This document shows, piece after piece, positions 12,126 to 60,019 of a stretch of 60,162 bases of DNA; the stretch's first letter is position 1; each line of letters starts with the position of its first letter. The translations under genes and the position numbers were made by a program. The stretch comes from a virus. The stretch lies in the IMG/VR virus record IMGVR_UViG_3300042197_004886, positions 1-60,162 of that record; one strand, 5' to 3'. The notes under the pieces were generated by a model, which did not search any database, had not been told where the DNA came from, and saw only the letters and a list, made by a program, of their open reading frames with translations.

Positions 12126-12290
12126 ATGGCAGAAATCCAATTGGAGTTTACTCCTCGACCACAACAAGAAGAAATACTCCAGTTCACTAAAGACTCGATC
12201 GCTGCTGGGAAAAAATTTGTCATGATTGACGCTCCGACTGGCTGCTTAACAAAAAATCAAAAAATACGAATATATAAATTAAAAAAGTAA
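12126..12290 (+). CDS. Fe-S (DinG/XPD-like) helicase, N-terminal extein with 15-residue IntN
   Basis: 54 residues. Residues 1-39 are the helicase N-terminus, ending FVMIDAPTG, which is the first half of a Walker A motif. Residues 40-54 (CLTKNQKIRIYKLKK) are an intein N-terminal block A starting with the nucleophile Cys40. The frame then stops, followed by a homing-endonuclease ORF. The C-fragment of the same helicase begins at 13596 and resumes exactly with TGKS after an intein C-terminus. Trans-splicing would rebuild APTG-TGKS, a perfect P-loop. This two-gene layout matches the atypical split inteins with very short N-parts known from T4-like phage metagenomes. Confidence 0.85.
   Translation: MAEIQLEFTPRPQQEEILQFTKDSIAAGKKFVMIDAPTGCLTKNQKIRIYKLKK
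12243..12287 (+). other. Split intein, N-terminal fragment (IntN, 15 aa)
   Basis: Cys-Leu-Thr start and hydrophobic beta strand (KIRIYKL) typical of intein block A. It begins directly after the Gly of the P-loop half. It is unusually short for a natural split intein, most of which have 90-120-residue N-parts. Confidence 0.85.
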
Positions 12291-12295
12291 TTTAT

Positions 12296-13492
12296 ATGAA
12301 GCGTAGTAAATATAATGAAATTGTTAAGGCCGCTCGTAAATTAAAAAATAATATTTCATTTGAAACGCTGAATGATTTTTTACAAAAATATAAAATTGAT
12401 TTAGATATAAATCCATCAGCTATTCAATCTTTAATTAATGAGATATTAATTGAAATCAAACAAACTGATTCAATAACGCTATCTAAATTAAAATTGAAGT
12501 ACAAAAAAACATCAAAGGAGTATTGGATTATCCGAGGTTGGGATCTTGAATATTCAATTAGAAAAGCAAAAGAAGCAAATCAAATATATTCTCATCCAGG
12601 TCGATTGAAGAAAAAAGGATATTCTCATGATGAAATTAAAAAAATTGTTAGTGATTCATGTAAAAAAGGTCATGTAACTTTAAAAAATAGACCTAATTAC
12701 GATGAAATACTCAACCGTAGAAATCGAGGATTTTCTAAATATCGATATACTAAAATCATAAATCCATTAACTGGAGTATTTTACACTAAAGATGAATCTG
12801 AACAAAAATATAAAGAGGACCAACGTCGAGCAAGTATCTCTGCAAATAAAAATAGAAAGCCTGAGTCAATTAACACTAAAATTGAATATTATTTAGCTAA
12901 AGGTCTTTCTTTAGATGATACAAAAGCAGCCTTATTTGAACGCCAAATACGAAATGGACTAACTTATTATATAAATCAATATGGATTAGCTCAAGGAACC
13001 AATAAATATTTTTCTCGCATAGAAAAATATGGAAATAAAATTAAAAAGTTAAGAGAAGACTTTCCACAAAAATGGAAGACTTCTGGTAAAAAGTATAGTA
13101 ATATATCCAAAAAATTTTTTGATAGTTTAATTAATGAAATTGACAATTTAAAAAATTTAACTATTTTTTATGCTGAAAATGAGTATTTTATATATGACTC
13201 AACCAACAAAAAAATATATTTCTATGATTTTTATGTTAAAGAAATTAATTTAATTATTGAATATCATGGAGTCGTATGGCACCCAAGAAAAAGAGTTCAA
13301 GAAGGATGGATTCATCCATATACTAAAGAAACGTCTGAGAAATATTATGACTTAGATAAACATAAAGAAAAACTAGCAAACGATAAAGGAATTGATGTCA
13401 TAACTATATTTGAAACTGACATAACCGTTAATAAAACACATATACTTGATGAATTACATAGAAGAATTAGGTCGTACTATAATATTAAATGA
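12296..13492 (+). CDS. EDxHD (Vsr-like) homing endonuclease inserted between split-intein halves
   Basis: 398 residues, strongly AT-rich, in a different frame from both helicase fragments and starting five bases after the IntN stop. The N-terminal 270 residues are Lys-rich with helical DNA-binding character. The C-terminal nuclease domain reads IYFYDFYVKEINLIIEYHG, then WHP, then YYDLDKHKEKLANDKGIDV and IFETDI. This is the Vsr-like / PD-(D/E)xK-related EDxHD arrangement described for I-Bth0305I and for endonucleases in fractured phage genes. It presumably cuts intein-less helicase alleles so the whole split-intein cassette is copied. Target specificity cannot be read from sequence. Confidence 0.85.
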   Translation: MKRSKYNEIVKAARKLKNNISFETLNDFLQKYKIDLDINPSAIQSLINEILIEIKQTDSITLSKLKLKYKKTSKEYWIIRGWDLEYSIRKAKEANQIYSHPGRLKKKGYSHDEIKKIVSDSCKKGHVTLKNRPNYDEILNRRNRGFSKYRYTKIINPLTGVFYTKDESEQKYKEDQRRASISANKNRKPESINTKIEYYLAKGLSLDDTKAALFERQIRNGLTYYINQYGLAQGTNKYFSRIEKYGNKIKKLREDFPQKWKTSGKKYSNISKKFFDSLINEIDNLKNLTIFYAENEYFIYDSTNKKIYFYDFYVKEINLIIEYHGVVWHPRKRVQEGWIHPYTKETSEKYYDLDKHKEKLANDKGIDVITIFETDITVNKTHILDELHRRIRSYYNIK

Positions 13493-13595
13493 TCTAAAGC
13501 ATCATTATAATATTGAAAAATTAAGTCAATTATCTGATTTTAAATTAAATGATTTTTTCAATAACCATGTTATCTCCAATAGTGAAGAAATAACA

Positions 13596-13928
13596 ATGAA
13601 AGATTTTTATGAGTTGGATGAAGAGCTATTAATTGAATCGTTGGATGGATACGTTAGAGTTGGAGAAAAAATAAAAAAGACCAATTTAGAATGTTATACA
13701 TTGACCTTAGTTGACAGTCGAAAATTGTCTGGAGCATTTAATCACCTGGTTGAAACGAGTAGAGGTTGGGTAAAATTAAAAGAATTAACAAATAATGATT
13801 ATGTATTAACGATTGATGGTCATATCAAAGTAAAAAACATCAGGCAAATTAAAACACAGGACGTATATGATTTAGAATGTTTGCATCCAAATCATAGATA
13901 TCTATCAAATGGCATATCTAATCATAAT
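13596..13928 (+). other. Split intein, C-terminal fragment (IntC, about 111 aa)
   Basis: Ends with penultimate His110 and terminal Asn111, followed by Thr as the +1 nucleophile. It contains the block B His (NHLVE) and block F (VYDLECLHPNHRYLSNGI). It is AT-rich compared with the downstream extein. The IntC start is uncertain between 13446 and 13596. Confidence 0.8.
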
Positions 13929-15404
13929 ACTGGAAAATCTTACGCCGCAATCATGATTGCCGATTGGTATCGTAAAGAGATCAACAAAAAGGCCAGGGTC
14001 GACGTTATCACCAATACCAAGCTCTTGCAGGACCAGTACATCAGAGACTTTAGTTTTGCAGCAAATCTTAAGGGTAAAAATAACTACTGGTGCAAGCGCC
14101 AGAACATGGGCTGTGGAGATGCTCAAATCTTAAACAAGGCCACCGAAAAAAAGTGTGAAGCCTGCGCTCACAAGATAGCTCAATCTCATTTTATCCGCAG
14201 CCCACTGAGCCTGACCAACTTTCACCTCATCACCTCCTACTCGATGTACTCTCCCGACCTTATGGCCGAGCGCAATTCTAAACTGCTAATCGTCGATGAA
14301 GCTCACGCTTTTGAGGAGGCATTTTGCGATTTTATTACCTCTGCATTTTCAGAACGCAGCCTAAAGCTGCTCGATATCTGGCAGCCCTGGATGGAGCGCG
14401 ACCTCGACAATATTAGTTCAGTTTACGAGCTTTCTGACTGGGTAAATGACGTTATTGTGCCGATCCTGGCCACCCGAGCTGAGGACTTACTCAGTGAGGC
14501 CAAGGAGATGCGTAATCGCGCAAAAAAGCTCGACCTCATCAAAAAAGCGGATCACGTCGACAAATCGATGTGCAAGTATAACCGTTTTGTGAAGGACCGT
14601 AAAAACTATGACTCTAATTGGACCTTTGAAAAGGATTTGGATCAGCACGGCAAAACGCGTATCCTAGTGGAGCCGATTTGGGGTAATCTCTACCTGCCTG
14701 AAATGTTTTGGGACAAGTACGACCACGTGATCTTTATGTCGGGTACGCTCCTAGATCGTGAGCTCTTCTCCTTTATCATGGGAGTAGAGGAGGAAGAGTC
14801 CACCTACTTGGCCATGCCCTGTCCTTTTCTTGCAGGAAAGCGACCTGTTATCTACCTAAAGTTCGGTAAAATGTCCTACTACAACAAGAAGGAAACTTTC
14901 AGCCGTGCAGTTCCAATTATTGAGCGTATTCTTGAAAAAAATAACAAGCATAAGGGTATCATCCACACAGCTAATTACGAATTTAGTAATTGGATAAAGA
15001 GCTCGATAAAAGATTCACGACTTATTTTCCACGATTCAGCAACTCGAGAAAAAAGTTTGACCGATCACCTAACTTCCACCCTAGAAACTGTCTTAGTATC
15101 TCCATCAATGATCAATGGAGTCGACTTAAAGGACGATTTTTCCCGCTTTCAGGTGATCTTAAAGGTACCCTTTCCTAATTTGGTGAGTACAAAGATCAAG
15201 AAGAGGTTGGAATCTAGGCCAGACTGGTATAATTGGAAGACACTAGTCGACCTATTACAATCGTACGGTCGCTCTATCAGAAATGACGAAGACTGGGCCG
15301 AGACCTATATCCTCGATGAGTGCTTCGACCAGATATTAAATAACAAAGGAGTGCCTCAATATTTTTTAGAGGCTCTTAAAATAAAAAAACTTTCTAAAAA
15401 ATGA
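13596..15404 (+). CDS. Fe-S (DinG/XPD-like) helicase, C-terminal extein preceded by IntC
   Basis: The frame is open from 13446 but overlaps the endonuclease there; ATG 13596 is the first start clear of it. Residues 1-111 are the intein C-part: block B-like GAFNHLVETSRGW, then VYDLECLHPNH and the terminal SNHN. The helicase resumes at Thr112 with TGKSYAA. Further motifs are an Fe-S cysteine set (WCKRQNMGC, then KKCEACAH), a DEAH Walker B (LLIVDEAHAFEE), FMSGTLLD, and a motif VI region SYGRSIRNDEDWAE. It resembles the XPD/DinG 5'-3' helicases. With the 39-residue N-extein the mature enzyme would have about 530 residues. The helicase DNA is GC-richer than the intein DNA. Confidence 0.85.
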   Translation: MKDFYELDEELLIESLDGYVRVGEKIKKTNLECYTLTLVDSRKLSGAFNHLVETSRGWVKLKELTNNDYVLTIDGHIKVKNIRQIKTQDVYDLECLHPNHRYLSNGISNHNTGKSYAAIMIADWYRKEINKKARVDVITNTKLLQDQYIRDFSFAANLKGKNNYWCKRQNMGCGDAQILNKATEKKCEACAHKIAQSHFIRSPLSLTNFHLITSYSMYSPDLMAERNSKLLIVDEAHAFEEAFCDFITSAFSERSLKLLDIWQPWMERDLDNISSVYELSDWVNDVIVPILATRAEDLLSEAKEMRNRAKKLDLIKKADHVDKSMCKYNRFVKDRKNYDSNWTFEKDLDQHGKTRILVEPIWGNLYLPEMFWDKYDHVIFMSGTLLDRELFSFIMGVEEEESTYLAMPCPFLAGKRPVIYLKFGKMSYYNKKETFSRAVPIIERILEKNNKHKGIIHTANYEFSNWIKSSIKDSRLIFHDSATREKSLTDHLTSTLETVLVSPSMINGVDLKDDFSRFQVILKVPFPNLVSTKIKKRLESRPDWYNWKTLVDLLQSYGRSIRNDEDWAETYILDECFDQILNNKGVPQYFLEALKIKKLSKK

Positions 15405-36397: not shown

Positions 36398-37363
36398 ATG
36401 AATCAAATTAGTTGTAAAATATGTAATGAAACAGACTTAGCTAAAATGAAAAGTGCAGTCTTTAAAAAAACGAATAGCAGAAAATACTATAATATTTGTA
36501 TATCATGCTATTCAAAAAAGATGAAAGACTCTCTATTGGCTACTTGTAAAAACTATTCTACTGAAAAAATAGAAAAAGCTAAACAAAAAAGAAAAGAAAC
36601 TAATTTGAAAAAATATGGAACTGCCTTCCCTCAAAAATTAGATTCAGTAAAATTAAAAACGAAGCAAAATAATTTATTAAAACATGGAGTTGAAAATCCT
36701 TGGCAATCCAAACAAATTAAAGACAAAATAAAAAAGACTAATTTAGAAAGATATGGAGTTGAATATGTTTCTCAATCTAATCTTATTAAAAATAAAAAAT
36801 TAAATTCATGGTTTTCTAAAAAACCAGAAGAACGTCAAAAAATAATAAATAAAGCAAATTCAACAAAGAGATCGAAGACTGATTCTCAAAAATTAAAAAC
36901 TAAGGAGCTGAGAGAAAACACAAATTTACATAAATATGGAGTCAAAAATATTGGTCAATTAAATTATTCATATTCTAAAATATCTCAAGAATTATTTAAT
37001 TCGATATATTTAAAATTACCCATATTTCTTCAGCAAAAAACGTATTACGCATCATTAAATTTTGAATTTATACGAAAATTTAATGAATCAACGTACTTAT
37101 ATGATTTTACCATAACATCAATAAAGAAAATTATAGAGTTTAATGGAGATCTATGGCATGCGAATCCACTAAAATATCCTGATCCTAACTTAAAAATGAA
37201 AAGATTAAATGGAATTACGTGTAAAGAAATATGGGATAGAGATTTTAAAAAAATACAACACGTCGAGTCAATTGGATATTCTGTTAAGGTCATTTGGGAA
37301 AACGACTATGTAAAAAATAAAGAAGAAACCGTCGCTTCTTGTATATCATGGCTGTTAAATTAG
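36398..37363 (+). CDS. EDxHD (Vsr-like) homing endonuclease with LKKYG repeats
   Basis: 321 residues, strongly AT-rich. The N-terminus has a Cys-pair motif (CKICNETD, then CISCYSKK). Next come four to five copies of a target-binding repeat of the type T-N-L-x-[KR]-[YH]-G-[VT] at about 60-190 (TNLKKYGTAFP, NNLLKHGVENPW, TNLERYGVEYVSQSN, TNLHKYGVKNIG). The C-terminal nuclease domain reads YLYDFTITSIKKIIEFNGDL, then WHANP, then EIWDRDFKK and VKVIWENDY, as in the intein-associated endonuclease at 12296. Free-standing here, between neuB and unrelated genes. Confidence 0.8.
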   Translation: MNQISCKICNETDLAKMKSAVFKKTNSRKYYNICISCYSKKMKDSLLATCKNYSTEKIEKAKQKRKETNLKKYGTAFPQKLDSVKLKTKQNNLLKHGVENPWQSKQIKDKIKKTNLERYGVEYVSQSNLIKNKKLNSWFSKKPEERQKIINKANSTKRSKTDSQKLKTKELRENTNLHKYGVKNIGQLNYSYSKISQELFNSIYLKLPIFLQQKTYYASLNFEFIRKFNESTYLYDFTITSIKKIIEFNGDLWHANPLKYPDPNLKMKRLNGITCKEIWDRDFKKIQHVESIGYSVKVIWENDYVKNKEETVASCISWLLN

Positions 37364-52930: not shown

Positions 52931-54508
52931 ATGCTGCGATTTGAGCTTACACCGGACAAGAAATTTATCAAGCTAATCGATTTTAGCCTTAACTCTGAGC
53001 GGGCTGACCTCTTCTCCTTCTTCAAGAAAAAATCAAAAAAGGCCGACTTTAATGTGCTGGTCGACCGTGGCATATGGGATGGCTTTGACCGATTTATCAC
53101 AAAGGACGGGCTCATCTCAGTCTCCCTGTGGAAAGAAGTCTATAACTTTGCTGCACGCTACGGTTACGACTGCGAGATCGAGGGGATCGACGCTCTGCTC
53201 TCGCTGGGTCTTGATCGAGAAAAGTACGAAAAGTACGTTGCAAAACTGCTGGACGGAGTGGTTGACGAGTTCGGCAAGCCGATCGTGCCCAGGGACTATC
53301 AGGTAGAGGGCGCCTTTCGGGCAATACAGTACCGCTTCTGCACTCAAGAGCTAGCGACTTCAGCCGGCAAGACCCTGATCTTCTATATCTTTAACTCTTT
53401 CCTACGCGATGCAAAAAAGGTCTCGGCCGACAACAAGGCCCTGCTTATCGTGCCCAATATCTCGTTGGTCGGCCAGACTGCCGAGAAATTTGAGCTCTAC
53501 TCCTCACACAAGGATTCCTGGAAAGTCTGTACGATAGGCGGCGACGATCGCTTTAAGGAGAAGGAATTTGAGGCGGCTGAGCTGGTGATCTCCACCTATC
53601 AAAGCCTACAGAACCTGCCAAAGGAGGTCTTTAAGAAATTTACCTGCGTCTGTGTGGACGAAACCCACAAGTCGCGCGGCAACGTTATCCGCGATATATT
53701 AAAAGCCTGCTCCAATTGGAAATACAGGCTGGGCCTTTCTGGAACCGTAAAGATCGACGAAAAGTATTCTGACTTTTTCAGGGTACAGGAAAATGTCGGG
53801 CCGCTGGTGATGGTGCTCTCAGCAAAACACCTCATCGATAACGAGTACTCGCCCAACATCAAGATAAAGATGGTAAACCTTAAATACGATAAGGCCGACC
53901 CCTACCTACAGAAATACTGGGCCCTGAAACGCGATGGCAAGGCCATGTACAAGAGCGCAAAGGACTACGGCAAGGACATGCTGGCCATCGAGCGCTCCTT
54001 TATTTTTGAGAGCAAGGAACGACTTGATTTTATTAACTCGTTGGTGCAGAAATTCGGTAAAAACGCACTCATCCTCTTCTCTGATGTGAAAAACGGCTAT
54101 GGCAAAAAGATCCAGCAGAAACTGCTAGAGTGGAACACTAATACTTTTTATATTGACGGAGAGGTGGAATCCGCCGACCGAGATGATTTTAAGCAGACGA
54201 TGGAATCCCAAGACAACGTGGTGATAGTTGCAAGCTATGGTACATTTGCGACCGGAATTGACCTAAAAAAAGTGCACCATATTGTTTTTGCAGAATCGAC
54301 CAAGGCCGAGGTAACTCTTCGCCAGTCAATAGGTCGAGGCATGCGTAAACTGGCAGAAAAGACCCAGGTGATTATTTGGGACCTGGTAGACCAGCTAGAC
54401 GGTTACATGGTAAAACACGCTGAAAAACGCGAAGAGATCTATCGGGACCAGGAGTTTGAGATCGTAAAAAACACGATTGACCTTACAAAGAAAACAAGAG
54501 AAAGTTAG
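52931..54508 (+). CDS. uvsW: UvsW-type SF2 DNA/RNA helicase
   Basis: 525 residues from ATG 52931, close to T4 UvsW (about 500). It has a small N-terminal domain, then RDYQVEGAFRAIQYRF (Q-like), ATSAGKTLIFYI (Walker A), VISTYQSLQ (Ib), CVDETHKSRG (Walker B, DETH), GLSGTVK (III), ATGIDLKKVHHIVFAE and LRQSIGRGMRKL (VI). It remodels R-loops and stalled forks, moving T4 replication from origin-dependent to recombination-dependent. It converges with the minus-strand gene, overlapping by four bases. Confidence 0.9.
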   Translation: MLRFELTPDKKFIKLIDFSLNSERADLFSFFKKKSKKADFNVLVDRGIWDGFDRFITKDGLISVSLWKEVYNFAARYGYDCEIEGIDALLSLGLDREKYEKYVAKLLDGVVDEFGKPIVPRDYQVEGAFRAIQYRFCTQELATSAGKTLIFYIFNSFLRDAKKVSADNKALLIVPNISLVGQTAEKFELYSSHKDSWKVCTIGGDDRFKEKEFEAAELVISTYQSLQNLPKEVFKKFTCVCVDETHKSRGNVIRDILKACSNWKYRLGLSGTVKIDEKYSDFFRVQENVGPLVMVLSAKHLIDNEYSPNIKIKMVNLKYDKADPYLQKYWALKRDGKAMYKSAKDYGKDMLAIERSFIFESKERLDFINSLVQKFGKNALILFSDVKNGYGKKIQQKLLEWNTNTFYIDGEVESADRDDFKQTMESQDNVVIVASYGTFATGIDLKKVHHIVFAESTKAEVTLRQSIGRGMRKLAEKTQVIIWDLVDQLDGYMVKHAEKREEIYRDQEFEIVKNTIDLTKKTRES

Positions 54509-54807
54509 TCCCTATCCGCGATCACTTTTTCTAACTCTGCGTCGATTTGACGAGAGCCGTACCCGTCTTCCATCATAGCAATATAACACCCCTGCCAGTA
54601 GTCTATTGCGCTAAGCAGCTTTGCTCCGCTCTTTGCAGCAGGGAAAGTTTGCTCTCCAGAGTAATAGTACAATAATAGCTTTATCGCAATCTTTGAAAGA
54701 TAACGAGGTATGCCGAGCTCCTCTTCCGCTCGTCGCATGGCCCTCTGGATGCTTACTGGGATTGGGTCTGCGTCTGGATAGTGTTCATATAGTCTGATGT
54801 ACTTCAT
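54505..54807 (-). CDS. Hypothetical protein following the MORN-like array
   Basis: 100 residues from ATG 54807, which overlaps the preceding stop (ATGA). The first residues MKYIRLYEH copy the MKHIKLYEQ start of the three upstream paralogues, but the rest is different (IPVSIQRAMRRAEEELGIP, then SKIAIKLLLYYYSGEQTFP). This looks like an array-derived start joined to an unrelated helical protein. Confidence 0.6.
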   Translation of the reverse strand: MKYIRLYEHYPDADPIPVSIQRAMRRAEEELGIPRYLSKIAIKLLLYYYSGEQTFPAAKSGAKLLSAIDYWQGCYIAMMEDGYGSRQIDAELEKVIADRD

Positions 54808-55229
54808 ACTAGCCCAATCGATTTTAAATACTTCCATGCCTCCCATTCCTCTTGAGTAGTGACCTCTTTGGCGTGTTCGCCGTGCCAGTACCACCATTCC
54901 CACTCGACGGAGCCGTCTGGGCGATACACGATCTGGGCAGGCCCGTCTAGGCGATGCAGCTTACCGTTTTGGTACCACCATTCCCACGCGACGGAGCCGT
55001 CTCGGCGATACCCGATCATGGCAGGCCCGTCTAGACGATGCAGCTTATCGTTTTGGTACCACTCTTCCTCCTTAACAGAGCCGTCTCGGCGATACCCGAT
55101 CATGGCAGGCCCGTCTAGACGATGCAGCTTATCGTTTTGGTACCACTCTTCCTCCTTAACAGAGCCGTCTGGGTGATACCAGATCTGGGCTTCAGGTTCA
55201 GCTTGTTCGTATAGCTTGATGTGCTTCAT
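54804..55229 (-). CDS. MORN-like repeat protein, copy 3
   Basis: 141 residues from ATG 55229. It begins MKHIKLYEQAEPEAQ, then has four units of about 28 residues of the form YxxDGSVxxExWYQN[DG]KLHRLDGPAxIx, and ends with the shared tail WHGEHAKEVTTQEEWEAWKY. The repeat resembles MORN/YwqK-type beta-hairpins found in giant viruses, bacteria and phages. Function unknown. Start and stop overlap the neighbours by ATGA. Nearly identical in its last 45 residues to the other two copies. Confidence 0.65.
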   Translation of the reverse strand: MKHIKLYEQAEPEAQIWYHPDGSVKEEEWYQNDKLHRLDGPAMIGYRRDGSVKEEEWYQNDKLHRLDGPAMIGYRRDGSVAWEWWYQNGKLHRLDGPAQIVYRPDGSVEWEWWYWHGEHAKEVTTQEEWEAWKYLKSIGLV

Positions 55230-55985
55230 ATTAGCCCAATCGATTTTAAATACTTCCATGCCTCCCATTCCTCTTGAGTAGTGACCTCTTTGGCGTGTTC
55301 GCCGTGCCAGTACCACCATTCCCACTCGACGGAGCCGTCTGGGCGATACCCGATCCAGGCAGGCCCGTCTAGGCGATGCAGCTTACCGTTTTGGTACCAC
55401 TCTTCCTCCTCAACAGAGCCGTCTAGGCGATACCAGATCCAGGCAGGCCCGTCTGGGCGATGCAGCTTACCGTTTTGGTGCCACCGTTCCCGCTTGACGG
55501 AGCCGTCTGGGTGATACTTGATCCGCTTTTCAGGCTCAGCTTGTTCGTATAGCTTGATGTGCTTCATATTAGCCCAATCGATTTTAAATACTTCCATGCC
55601 TCCCATTCCTCTTGAGTAGTGACCTCTTTGGCGTGTTCGCCGTGCCAGTACCACCATTCCCACTCGACGGAGCCGTCTGGGCGATACCCGATCCAGGCAG
55701 GCCCGTCTAGGCGATGCAGCTTACCGTTTTGGTACCACTCTTCCTCCTTAACAGAGCCGTCTGGGCGATACCAGATCAGGGCAGGCCCGTCTGGGCGATG
55801 TCGCTTGTCGTTTTGGTACCACCATTCCCACTTGACGGAGCCGTCTGGGTGATACCAGATCTGGGCAGGCCCGTCTAGGCGATGCAGCTTACCGTTTTGG
55901 TACCATATTTCCCACTCAACAGAGCCGTCTGGGAGATACCCGATCCGCTTTTTAGGTTTAGCTTGTTCGTATAGCTTGATGTGCT
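54820..55985. repeat. Tandem gene triplication with about 84-bp internal repeats
   Basis: Long near-identical blocks recur at about 54810-54920, 55230-55340 and 55568-55680, covering each gene end and the next start. Inside genes, units of roughly 84 bases recur around gcccgtctaggcgatgcagc. Prone to copy-number change and to assembly error. Confidence 0.85.
55226..55567 (-). CDS. MORN-like repeat protein, copy 2
   Basis: 113 residues from ATG 55567, one repeat unit fewer than the flanking copies. Same MKHIKLYEQAEPE start and WEAWKYLKSIGLI end. Longer readings of this frame only translate the preceding paralogue out of frame. The unit loss and high identity indicate recent unequal recombination inside the array. 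Confidence 0.65.
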   Translation of the reverse strand: MKHIKLYEQAEPEKRIKYHPDGSVKRERWHQNGKLHRPDGPAWIWYRLDGSVEEEEWYQNGKLHRLDGPAWIGYRPDGSVEWEWWYWHGEHAKEVTTQEEWEAWKYLKSIGLI

Positions 55986-55989
55986 TCAT
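55564..55989 (-). CDS. MORN-like repeat protein, copy 1
   Basis: 141 residues, start MKHIKLYEQAKPKKR, then four repeats (DGSVEWEIWYQNGKLHRLDG and variants), same tail. It is the first of the array. The PhoH stop and an ATAAATAA word (55996-56003) lie immediately upstream, only six bases from its ATG. Confidence 0.65.
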   Translation of the reverse strand: MKHIKLYEQAKPKKRIGYLPDGSVEWEIWYQNGKLHRLDGPAQIWYHPDGSVKWEWWYQNDKRHRPDGPALIWYRPDGSVKEEEWYQNGKLHRLDGPAWIGYRPDGSVEWEWWYWHGEHAKEVTTQEEWEAWKYLKSIGLI

Positions 55990-57478: not shown

Positions 57479-58080
57479 ATGTCCGGCTTTTTAACTGAAA
57501 GAAAATTAGGTGAAAGTTTACCTTTAATTTTCAAAAAAGAATTTATTAATAATTTTCCTATAGGAAAATATAGAGCAGACTGGTTTAGTCCAGATCTATT
57601 GCTTTCAGTGGAATTCGATGGATATCGACACTATAACGACTCTCTAACTCAGCATAGAGATAAACTAAAGGATTCCTTTTTGAATTCAATTGGAGTTAAA
57701 TGTATCAGGATTCCATATTTTATTCAACTTCGCAAGATACGATAAATTCAGTGTTGCTCTTCGAAGGCTCGTTTACTGATGCCTGGTCACAAGAATATCC
57801 TCACGGTTTTATAGAAAAAACAGCTCTGCTCCCGGCTGATTTTAATGAGCTTGGAGTATACAGATTCATATCTGATATGAATCGCGTATCGATACGTATT
57901 CGTAAAGAAATTATTAATTCATTACTAGATAGAGCAAATCAAGTAAAATTAAAGATTTCTCCATTTGACAAATTAACAACAGTTTTCCCATTAAGCATAA
58001 TCAATGGACTTGATAATTGTACTTCACTAGAAGAAAAATCCTTAATTATTGAAAAAATATCATCAAACCTTTTGATATAA
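57479..58080 (+). pseudogene. Frameshifted Vsr/EDxHD-like nuclease next to the polymerase
   Basis: An AT-rich gene readable in two frames. Frame 1 (57479-57745) gives MSGFLTERKLGESLP, then a nuclease core YRADWFSPDLLLSVEFDGYR, VKCIRIPYFIQL, and a stop. Frame 2 (within 57700-58080) continues SQDTINSVLLFEGSF, then SQEYPHGFIEKTALLPADFN. Adding one base near 57727-57735 would join them as PYFIQL-SQDTIN, which reads as one protein of about 200 residues. So this is a single-base deletion, a sequencing error, or a programmed shift. Nucleases of this type accompany split phage genes. It precedes the polymerase C-half by 19 bases. Confidence 0.6.
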
Positions 58081-58099: not shown

Positions 58100-60019
58100 A
58101 TGGAAGACAAATCAAAACAGATAAAAAAGCTAGATCTAAAGCAAAATGCAATCAAGATCTTAATTAATAGTATATACGGCGCATTCGGCAATAAGTGGTT
58201 CTACTTTTACAATCCCGACATTGCTCAGTCTATCACTCTACAGGGCCAAGACCTCATCAAGTTCTCAATCAAGGCAGTAAACCACTACTTTCAAGAGCGA
58301 TGGCACCTCGATACCGAACTACACCAGATGCTGGGCCTAAGCGAGTACACTATTCGCAAGATCGACGAAGAAGCGGCTATCTATACTGACACCGATTCTG
58401 TGGCAGCAGATACAATAATCTGTTCAAAGAAATTCGGAAATTTAACAATAGCCGATTATTATGAGCTATCTATTAAAAACGGTTCGGCTGGAGAAACTCT
58501 CGCTGGCCACGAATCAGTTGCTTCAGATGAAGATAAAGTTTTGAATTGGACCAATGAAGAAGGTCTCTATTATGCCCCAGTAAAGAGAATAATTAGACAC
58601 AAGGTTTCAAAAGAAAGATGGAAATTAACCACTGAGTCTGGAAAAGAAGTTATTGTGACTGGCGACCATTCTCTAATTGTTTTTAGAGAAGGTCATCAAA
58701 TTGAAATTAAAGCTAGAGATATAAATATTGAAACTGATCTTGTATTAACAGTAATTTCTCCGCTATCTGAAAAATTCGAAAGAATAGCAAAGATTGAAAA
58801 ATTGACCGATTTTGATGATGAATATGTCTATGATATTGAAATCGCCGATTCCTCTCATACTTTTATAGCAAACGATATATTAGTGCACAACTCAATCTAT
58901 GTGCAGTTTGACTCGGCTATCTCCTCGATCGAGGGCGCAAGCTTCACCAGAGAAGAAGCCCTAAAGATCTGCGTTGCTATTGATAATAATCGACTCTCAA
59001 CCTACTTCGATAACTGTTTTGACAGGTACGGCCGACTCTTCAACACAAAGAATCGACTAAAGTTTAAGCTCGAAAACCTCTCCGAATACGGTATCTGGCT
59101 AAAGAAAAAGAATTATGCTATCAAGGTAGCCTACGATCCCAATCCAGCAATGGAGCTCACTCCCAAAGAAAAACGTTACCTTATCATCAAGGGTCTTGAA
59201 CCGGTAAAAGGTTCCTATCCAGACTGGGCTCGTAAAAAACTGGTAGAGCTCACCGAGTGGGTAATGGAAATAGGTAAGTCGCTCGATATTGAGCGTGATA
59301 TTATCCCCAAGTTCAAAGAAATTCGTCAAGAATTTGACCAGCTCAGCGTCGATGAAATTGCCTTCAACTTCAAGATCAGAATCTATAACAAATACGTTGA
59401 AAGCGTCGACGAGTTAAAGCTAAGGAAGGGCATCTCGATCTATCCTAGAGCGGCCGCCTACTACAATCACCTCTTGACCAAGACCGGTCTCAACCGCAAG
59501 TACACTCCCCTGCGCGAAGGCGACAAGATCAAGTTTTACTACTGTGCCGCCAATGATTATGAGTTCGATGTTTTTGCCTATGCTCCAGAAAACTATCCGA
59601 CTGAAATTGCTCCAGCGCTAGATCGCGATCTCCAGTTCTTTACGCTTATCGTCGAGCCAGTCAATCGCCTGCTCAAGGCAATGCGGATGAGCTCAGTCGA
59701 TATTACTCTTAAGCGCGCAGTCGAGGTGATTTCGCCCAAGACAAAAAAGCCGCTGACTGATGACCAAATCTATCCTCTCTATGTGGTCGATAGCGATTCT
59801 CTAGGCTATATCGAAGTTGCTGAAAAGTTCTGGAAGGTGATCGGTAATCCTGATGCAGAGATCAGCGATGCTGACTTTCCAGAGTACTTAGCCACCATTA
59901 CTAAATGGGGTCTCAATTCGGTGATTGTGCCCAAGTTTGAGCTCGATAAGTATCTTAAGCGCCTTGCAAAGAAGAAAGCTGAGCCTGTAGTCGAGACTGA
60001 AGAGGAAGAGACTGAATAA
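58100..60019 (+). CDS. 43: Family B DNA polymerase (gp43), C-terminal half with mini-intein
   Basis: 639 residues. The gene starts just before motif B (KILINSIYGAFGNKWFYFYN), so the exonuclease domain and motif A of a T4-type polymerase are missing and must be encoded outside the window. Motif C is interrupted: YTDTD at 95-99, then a 165-residue intein (100-264), then SIYVQF. After the intein come thumb-region sequences (LKFKLENLSEYGIWLKKKNY, KGLEPVKGSYPDWARKKL, RDLQFFTLIVEPVNRLLKAM). After splicing this fragment would be about 474 residues and would need the N-half to work. The acidic C-terminus (VVETEEEETE) differs from a typical clamp-binding tail. Confidence 0.88.
   Translation: MEDKSKQIKKLDLKQNAIKILINSIYGAFGNKWFYFYNPDIAQSITLQGQDLIKFSIKAVNHYFQERWHLDTELHQMLGLSEYTIRKIDEEAAIYTDTDSVAADTIICSKKFGNLTIADYYELSIKNGSAGETLAGHESVASDEDKVLNWTNEEGLYYAPVKRIIRHKVSKERWKLTTESGKEVIVTGDHSLIVFREGHQIEIKARDINIETDLVLTVISPLSEKFERIAKIEKLTDFDDEYVYDIEIADSSHTFIANDILVHNSIYVQFDSAISSIEGASFTREEALKICVAIDNNRLSTYFDNCFDRYGRLFNTKNRLKFKLENLSEYGIWLKKKNYAIKVAYDPNPAMELTPKEKRYLIIKGLEPVKGSYPDWARKKLVELTEWVMEIGKSLDIERDIIPKFKEIRQEFDQLSVDEIAFNFKIRIYNKYVESVDELKLRKGISIYPRAAAYYNHLLTKTGLNRKYTPLREGDKIKFYYCAANDYEFDVFAYAPENYPTEIAPALDRDLQFFTLIVEPVNRLLKAMRMSSVDITLKRAVEVISPKTKKPLTDDQIYPLYVVDSDSLGYIEVAEKFWKVIGNPDAEISDADFPEYLATITKWGLNSVIVPKFELDKYLKRLAKKKAEPVVETEEEETE
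58397..58891 (+). other. Mini-intein in polymerase motif C
   Basis: 165 residues with no endonuclease domain. It starts SVAADTIICSKKFG (Ser nucleophile). The block B TGDHSLIVF has the Thr-x-x-His pattern, and block F/G reads VYDIEIADSSHTFIANDILV, ending His263-Asn264. The +1 residue is Ser265. All splicing residues are present. The site, YxDTD/S, is the same catalytic position used by inteins in archaeal polymerases. The intein DNA is AT-richer than the flanking exteins. Confidence 0.88.

Follow-up and report, generated by a model that had tools for sequence, protein, structure and literature searches.

A gp43-type DNA polymerase encoded by two distant genes in a phage lineage, with a contiguous mini-intein in motif C

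The gene 43B and its intein

The window analysed here is the whole of a viral contig (G000) of 60,162 bases. It is a fragment; its record is classed as linear and has no end repeats, so its ends are arbitrary. At one end lies an open reading frame (ORF) of 639 codons uninterrupted by a stop. This is the gene 43B, which encodes the C-terminal half of a family B DNA polymerase of the T4 gp43 type as an intein-bearing precursor (Table 1). Profile searches matched the product to phrog_1918 (E 9e-58) and phrog_262 (E 5e-56), both annotated as DNA polymerase, and to the Pfam families DNA_pol_B (E 6e-13) and Intein_splicing (PF14890; E 4e-15). Motif B (KILINSIYG) is located at residue 19, and motif C (YTDTDS) follows at residue 95. 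Both motifs, together with the palm and thumb, are homologous to those of gp43, and RB69 and T4 gp43 resemble this half in both sequence and fold.

Alignment with T4 gp43 places the start of 43B ~18 residues ahead of motif B and reveals a shortened finger hairpin tip in the split polymerase. The break therefore falls before motif B, as a preliminary description of this DNA had stated. The same description took the gene to hold only the palm and thumb; its assignment to the C-terminal half of gp43 stands, but 43B also carries the second finger helix with motif B and is therefore more than palm plus thumb.

Table 1. Features of the 43B locus and of the left contig edge.
Feature	Position	Strand	Remarks
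Gene 43B, C-terminal half of T4 gp43-type family B DNA polymerase, intein-bearing precursor	58100..60019	+	639 aa; 474 aa once spliced
N-extein: finger helix, motif B (KILINSIYG), first part of motif C (YTDTD)	58100..58396	+	residues 1-99
Contiguous mini-intein, 165 aa, class-1 splicing residues (S1, TxxH, HN, +1 S), without endonuclease	58397..58891	+	residues 100-264
C-extein: remaining motif C, palm, thumb	58892..60019	+	residues 265-639
DUF559-like (Vsr-fold) endonuclease gene, two overlapping ORFs in different frames (57479-57745, 57700-58080)	57479..58080	+	directly upstream of 43B
gp46, C-terminal end; synteny anchor at left contig edge	3..647	+	in relatives, 43A lies ~7.5-9 kb further left

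The intein is inserted after YTDTD and before the +1 Ser of SIYVQF. It has Ser1, the block B sequence TGDH and a VHN terminus, followed by the +1 Ser; the earlier reading of a 165-residue intein at YTDTD/S, with complete splicing residues and no endonuclease, is borne out. Its site after DTD, its Ser1, TxxH, HN and +1 Ser residues and its predicted HINT fold place it among the PolB motif-C inteins of the Aes123 PolB1 type. AlphaFold modelled the intein with low confidence within the whole precursor, which was remedied by an intein-only alignment. The intein alone was then predicted with a mean pLDDT of 91, and the best match of this model in the PDB was 9HTH (TM 0.83), an artificially fused Aes123 PolB1 split intein.

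Pairwise comparison with the split homologues of two related loci, L005 and L006, gave a dN/dS of ~0.13-0.23 for the intein, with dS near saturation; this is read here as what would be expected of a working intein. An intein that is dead or poorly active, leaving 43B inactive in the window's phage, is very improbable. The adjoining endonuclease gene is frame-shifted, so mobile elements here do decay, but the reading frame of the intein is open, every catalytic residue is kept, and the comparison with its split relatives points to purifying selection. GC3 is 0.23 in the intein versus 0.54 in the exteins; as a sign of foreign origin this is weak evidence, because 93 of 878 equal-length windows in other ORFs are equally low.

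The N-terminal half in relatives of the window

The exonuclease motifs and motif A are not in the window; in collinear relatives they are carried by a separate gene, 43A. A phrog_262 profile search of the window matched the C-terminal half only, the exonuclease domain profile PF03104 had no match in it, and tblastn with three N-terminal halves gave a best E value of only 0.95. These searches agree with the preliminary description, in which the N-terminal half was said to be missing from the 57 kb upstream, within the bound set by the contig end. The half is probably lacking only because the contig stops too early. A search with exact DNA patterns for contigs that extend the window found none rightward and only L111 leftward. 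L111, another contig from the window's virus (99.98% identity over 10,644 bases), reaches 5.4 kb further left, stops inside uvsX and does not include 43A.

A scan of viral contigs supplied 56 relatives. In about 47 loci, at identities down to 40%, the C-terminal half is likewise a fragment and keeps its start, and in 47 of 48 loci the aligned Met1 is preceded by a stop codon 1-52 codons upstream. Most of the relatives are intein-free, with an uninterrupted YTDTDSIYVQF. When whole records were searched with phrog_262, the N-terminal half was found upstream of the C-terminal half on the same strand, at 52 kb in G003, 53 kb in G002, 54 kb in G006 and 67 kb in G007. The window is collinear with all four. 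The two halves also share a strand in G017, 12 kb apart, and in G012, about 58 kb apart. No N-terminal half was found in the 54 kb upstream of the C-terminal half in G001, a distance at the edge of that expected. A search for relatives of the window in genome contigs, as a hint to the host, returned none.

The 43A product (~474 aa) carries the exonuclease motifs DIE, NVTEFD and YNVIDV as well as motif A (DFSSMYP). It matches RB69 gp43 with an E value of 1e-31, the match ending short of the finger tip. From the alignment with T4 gp43, 43A itself stops at the finger tip, near T4 residue 494, and has no IntN, which settles for the relatives whether the missing half ends in an intein fragment or simply stops.

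The position of 43A is regular. Among 54 gp46 loci that were fetched, the count was restricted to the 23 with a full 10-kb flank, and in all 23 the gene lies ~7.5-9 kb upstream of gp46, in a block ordered 43A ... uvsX, gp41, gp47, gp46. For this reason 43A is expected just past the left edge of the window, and the window's phage probably has its own 43A there.

The preliminary description had itself raised the possibility that 43B is a remnant, replication being the work of another complete polymerase elsewhere in the genome. The contig is a fragment, so a further gene could lie outside it, but several observations make this very unlikely. A remnant would not be expected to recur with an unchanged start in so many divergent loci, and the exteins are strongly conserved (pN 0.13-0.16 with synonymous sites saturated). 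Furthermore, the relatives' records of 125-207 kb each hold exactly one N-terminal and one C-terminal half, and a search of the lineage's long records found no second complete gp43, PolA or PolIII alpha. Terminal repeats, sought in the relatives as a test of completeness, were not found. The other possibility raised, an assembly artefact with 43A truly directly ahead of 43B, draws on the position of 43B at a contig end, where assembly is least certain, but is scarcely credible and, on gene order, is already refuted for the lineage: an opposite-strand gene is kept upstream of 43B in about 40 independent contigs, another 25 sightings of 43A, each in an independent contig, are at the gp46/uvsX locus, and the halves are 52-67 kb apart in G002, G003, G006 and G007. 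The wide spacing of the halves and the place of 43A near gp46 in relatives indicate that the two-gene polymerase is a fixed trait of the whole phage lineage, neither artefact nor remnant.

Proposed splicing and assembly of the polymerase from two products

It is proposed that the replicative polymerase of this lineage of T4-like phages is permanently divided into two genes, 43A and 43B, on the same strand and 52-67 kb apart, and that the intein of 43B splices in cis before the product pairs with 43A. Given the anatomy of 43B, the conserved split, the distant N-terminal half in relatives and the predicted HINT fold, this is very probably correct. With two genes and an intein in the catalytic site, the working enzyme would require splicing first and then the joining of two separately made halves, the unspliced precursor presumably being inactive.

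In the proposed scheme, the 43A product would stop at the finger tip, contributing the exonuclease domain and motif A together with the first finger helix, and 43B would supply everything from the second finger helix onward, including motifs B and C, the palm and the thumb. The 43B precursor would fold its intein and splice in cis through an acyl shift at Ser1, transfer to the +1 Ser and cyclisation of Asn165, restoring motif C as YTDTDS-IYVQF. The mature 474-aa subunit would then join 43A non-covalently across the finger tip. In Aeromonas phage 25, the split 43A and 43B proteins purify together and show activity (PMC2988022), which by analogy makes such assembly plausible in the window's lineage.

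Throughout an entire phage lineage, a core catalytic subunit of the replisome can thus be divided between two genes that lie tens of kilobases from each other. The finger-tip split divides the dNTP-binding finger hairpin between two chains, and the distance between 43A and 43B means that their expression and assembly must be coordinated without an operon.

Comparison with other split polymerases

The closest precedent is Aeromonas phage Aes123 (JN377899; gp43A / gp43B1 / VSR endonuclease / gp43B2). Its gp43 is likewise broken at the finger tip, with motif A on one side and motif B on the other, and its intein, which begins with Ser1 and follows DTD in motif C, is 35% identical to that of the window. 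The combination of a finger-tip split with a motif-C intein is therefore already known, and the preliminary description was right that a gp43A/43B split with adjacent halves occurs near the same point. Aes123 differs from the window in that the genes are adjacent, an endonuclease lies between the halves of its split intein, and its gp43 split has a separate origin. More generally, the window's lineage shares with the Aeromonas 43A/43B polymerases a finger split between motifs A and B, but its halves do not lie side by side in one operon. What is new is the distance between the halves, more than 50 kb, and the occurrence of a contiguous intein that has split forms as its nearest relatives.

The separate origin follows from a polymerase tree of the joined N- and C-terminal exteins (794 columns). 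The window's lineage, G017, Lak-A2, G012 and Tenacibaculum phage PTm5 form one clade with 100% support, whereas the split polymerase of Aes123 groups with unsplit T4. As Aes123 falls with T4, outside the window's clade, the finger-tip split arose at least twice and is not of shared origin with the Aeromonas 43A/43B split. Within the clade, the spacing of 43A and 43B ranges from ~2 kb (PTm5) to ~220 kb on opposite strands (Lak-A2). Tenacibaculum phages PTm1 and PTm5 and the Prevotella Lak phages belong to the same finger-tip-split clade and have motif-C inteins as in the window, but their inteins are split. In Lak-A2 (L109, L110; a Prevotella phage) the split intein lies in the C-terminal half of gp43, in a record without annotation. 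A different split polymerase, PolIII alpha, is encoded by distant genes in a group of jumbo phages that includes Lak and PTm1 (PMC7824862). In the library of papers that was searched, no description of distant PolB halves was found.

Contiguous and split forms of the intein

The inteins closest to that of the window, at 66% identity, belong to L005 and L006, from uncultured viruses in IMG/VR. They come from the same phage clade, with the same 43B start and the same intein at the same site. In contrast to the contiguous intein of the window, IntN and IntC are separate genes in these two loci and flank an EDxHD-type endonuclease of 385-392 aa; their polymerase would therefore need three pieces. 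Dassa et al. (2009) reportedly described such fractured genes, in which IntN and IntC lie in separate genes with an EDxHD-type endonuclease gene between. This layout is seen in L005, in L006 and in a helicase gene of the window, but not in the window's polymerase intein.

In the intein tree, contiguous and split forms occur as sister groups three times: the window with L005 and L006, L038 with PTm5, and CC_R7 with F379. The inteins of Campylobacter phages CC_R7 (L104, contiguous) and F379 (L183, split) are PolB motif-C inteins that are 89% identical and form a second pair of the window's kind, that of F379 being divided by an inserted gene; unlike in the window's lineage, the polymerase itself is unsplit at the finger tip. 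Salicola phage SCTP-2 (L108) was considered as a further contiguous relative but is a weak comparator, as its PolB intein has KN in place of the terminal HN and is inserted one register earlier (YGD / TDS).

Under irreversible parsimony, a split ancestor requires 4 fusions and a contiguous ancestor 10 splits. In this small sample, the count is suggestive only, and favours re-fusion of a split intein. It is tentatively proposed that the mini-intein is a re-fused, or 'healed', split intein that has lost its endonuclease gene, and that contiguous forms have arisen repeatedly from split ones in this phage intein family; the odds are somewhat against this reading. In that reading, the spread of the mini-intein may now rely on an unlinked endonuclease, such as that encoded at 36398-37363 in the window. 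In the literature, split inteins are assumed to derive from contiguous ones (PMC12707363), and re-fusion, if true, would be the reverse. The three contiguous/split pairs offer natural tests of how split inteins originate or heal, and their inteins are candidate cysteine-poor splicing tools.

Mobile DNA near 43B and elsewhere

The DUF559-like endonuclease gene upstream of 43B separates it from a gene that is usually ~170 bases away. A search of all loci for this endonuclease beside 43B found it in the window only; it is therefore not the regular intein partner of the lineage. Extra DNA occurs at the same place in L009, L031 and L004, and in L009 and L031 the insert is a different endonuclease gene (527 aa). 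The spot upstream of 43B has thus been invaded repeatedly. Directly upstream of 43A in L112, the closest relative having the N-terminal half, an ORF (L112:42-575) resembles the DNA-binding region of a homing endonuclease.

The gene at 36398-37363 encodes a free-standing EDxHD-type endonuclease (Pfam DUF7487 and DUF559), a candidate trans-acting homing enzyme. Over 126 aa it shares 41% identity with the endonuclease that accompanies the Aes123 PolB split intein.

The minus strand at 54505-55989 holds 3 or 4 tandem, mutually overlapping ORF copies of ~130-170 aa, built of repeated 'DGSV..E.WYQNGKLHR.DGPA' units; none of the four collinear relatives has them.

A second fractured intein gene lies at 12126-15404, where a DinG/UvsW-like helicase is broken within Walker A (DAPTG / TGKSYAA). 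The N-terminal part (12126-12290) terminates in a 15-aa IntN (CLTKNQKIRIYKLKK) and is followed by an EDxHD-type endonuclease (12296-13492); the ORF at 13446-15404 then opens with a ~160-aa IntC ending in HN. The helicase gene of G007 is uninterrupted. UvsX inteins are present at TYA / SMDQYTPKG in L111:1-90 (the window's virus), L117:2543-4900, L154:3680-5000 and L158. Two of these UvsX inteins are split: in L117 an endonuclease gene separates the halves, and in L154 they are just 17 bases apart.
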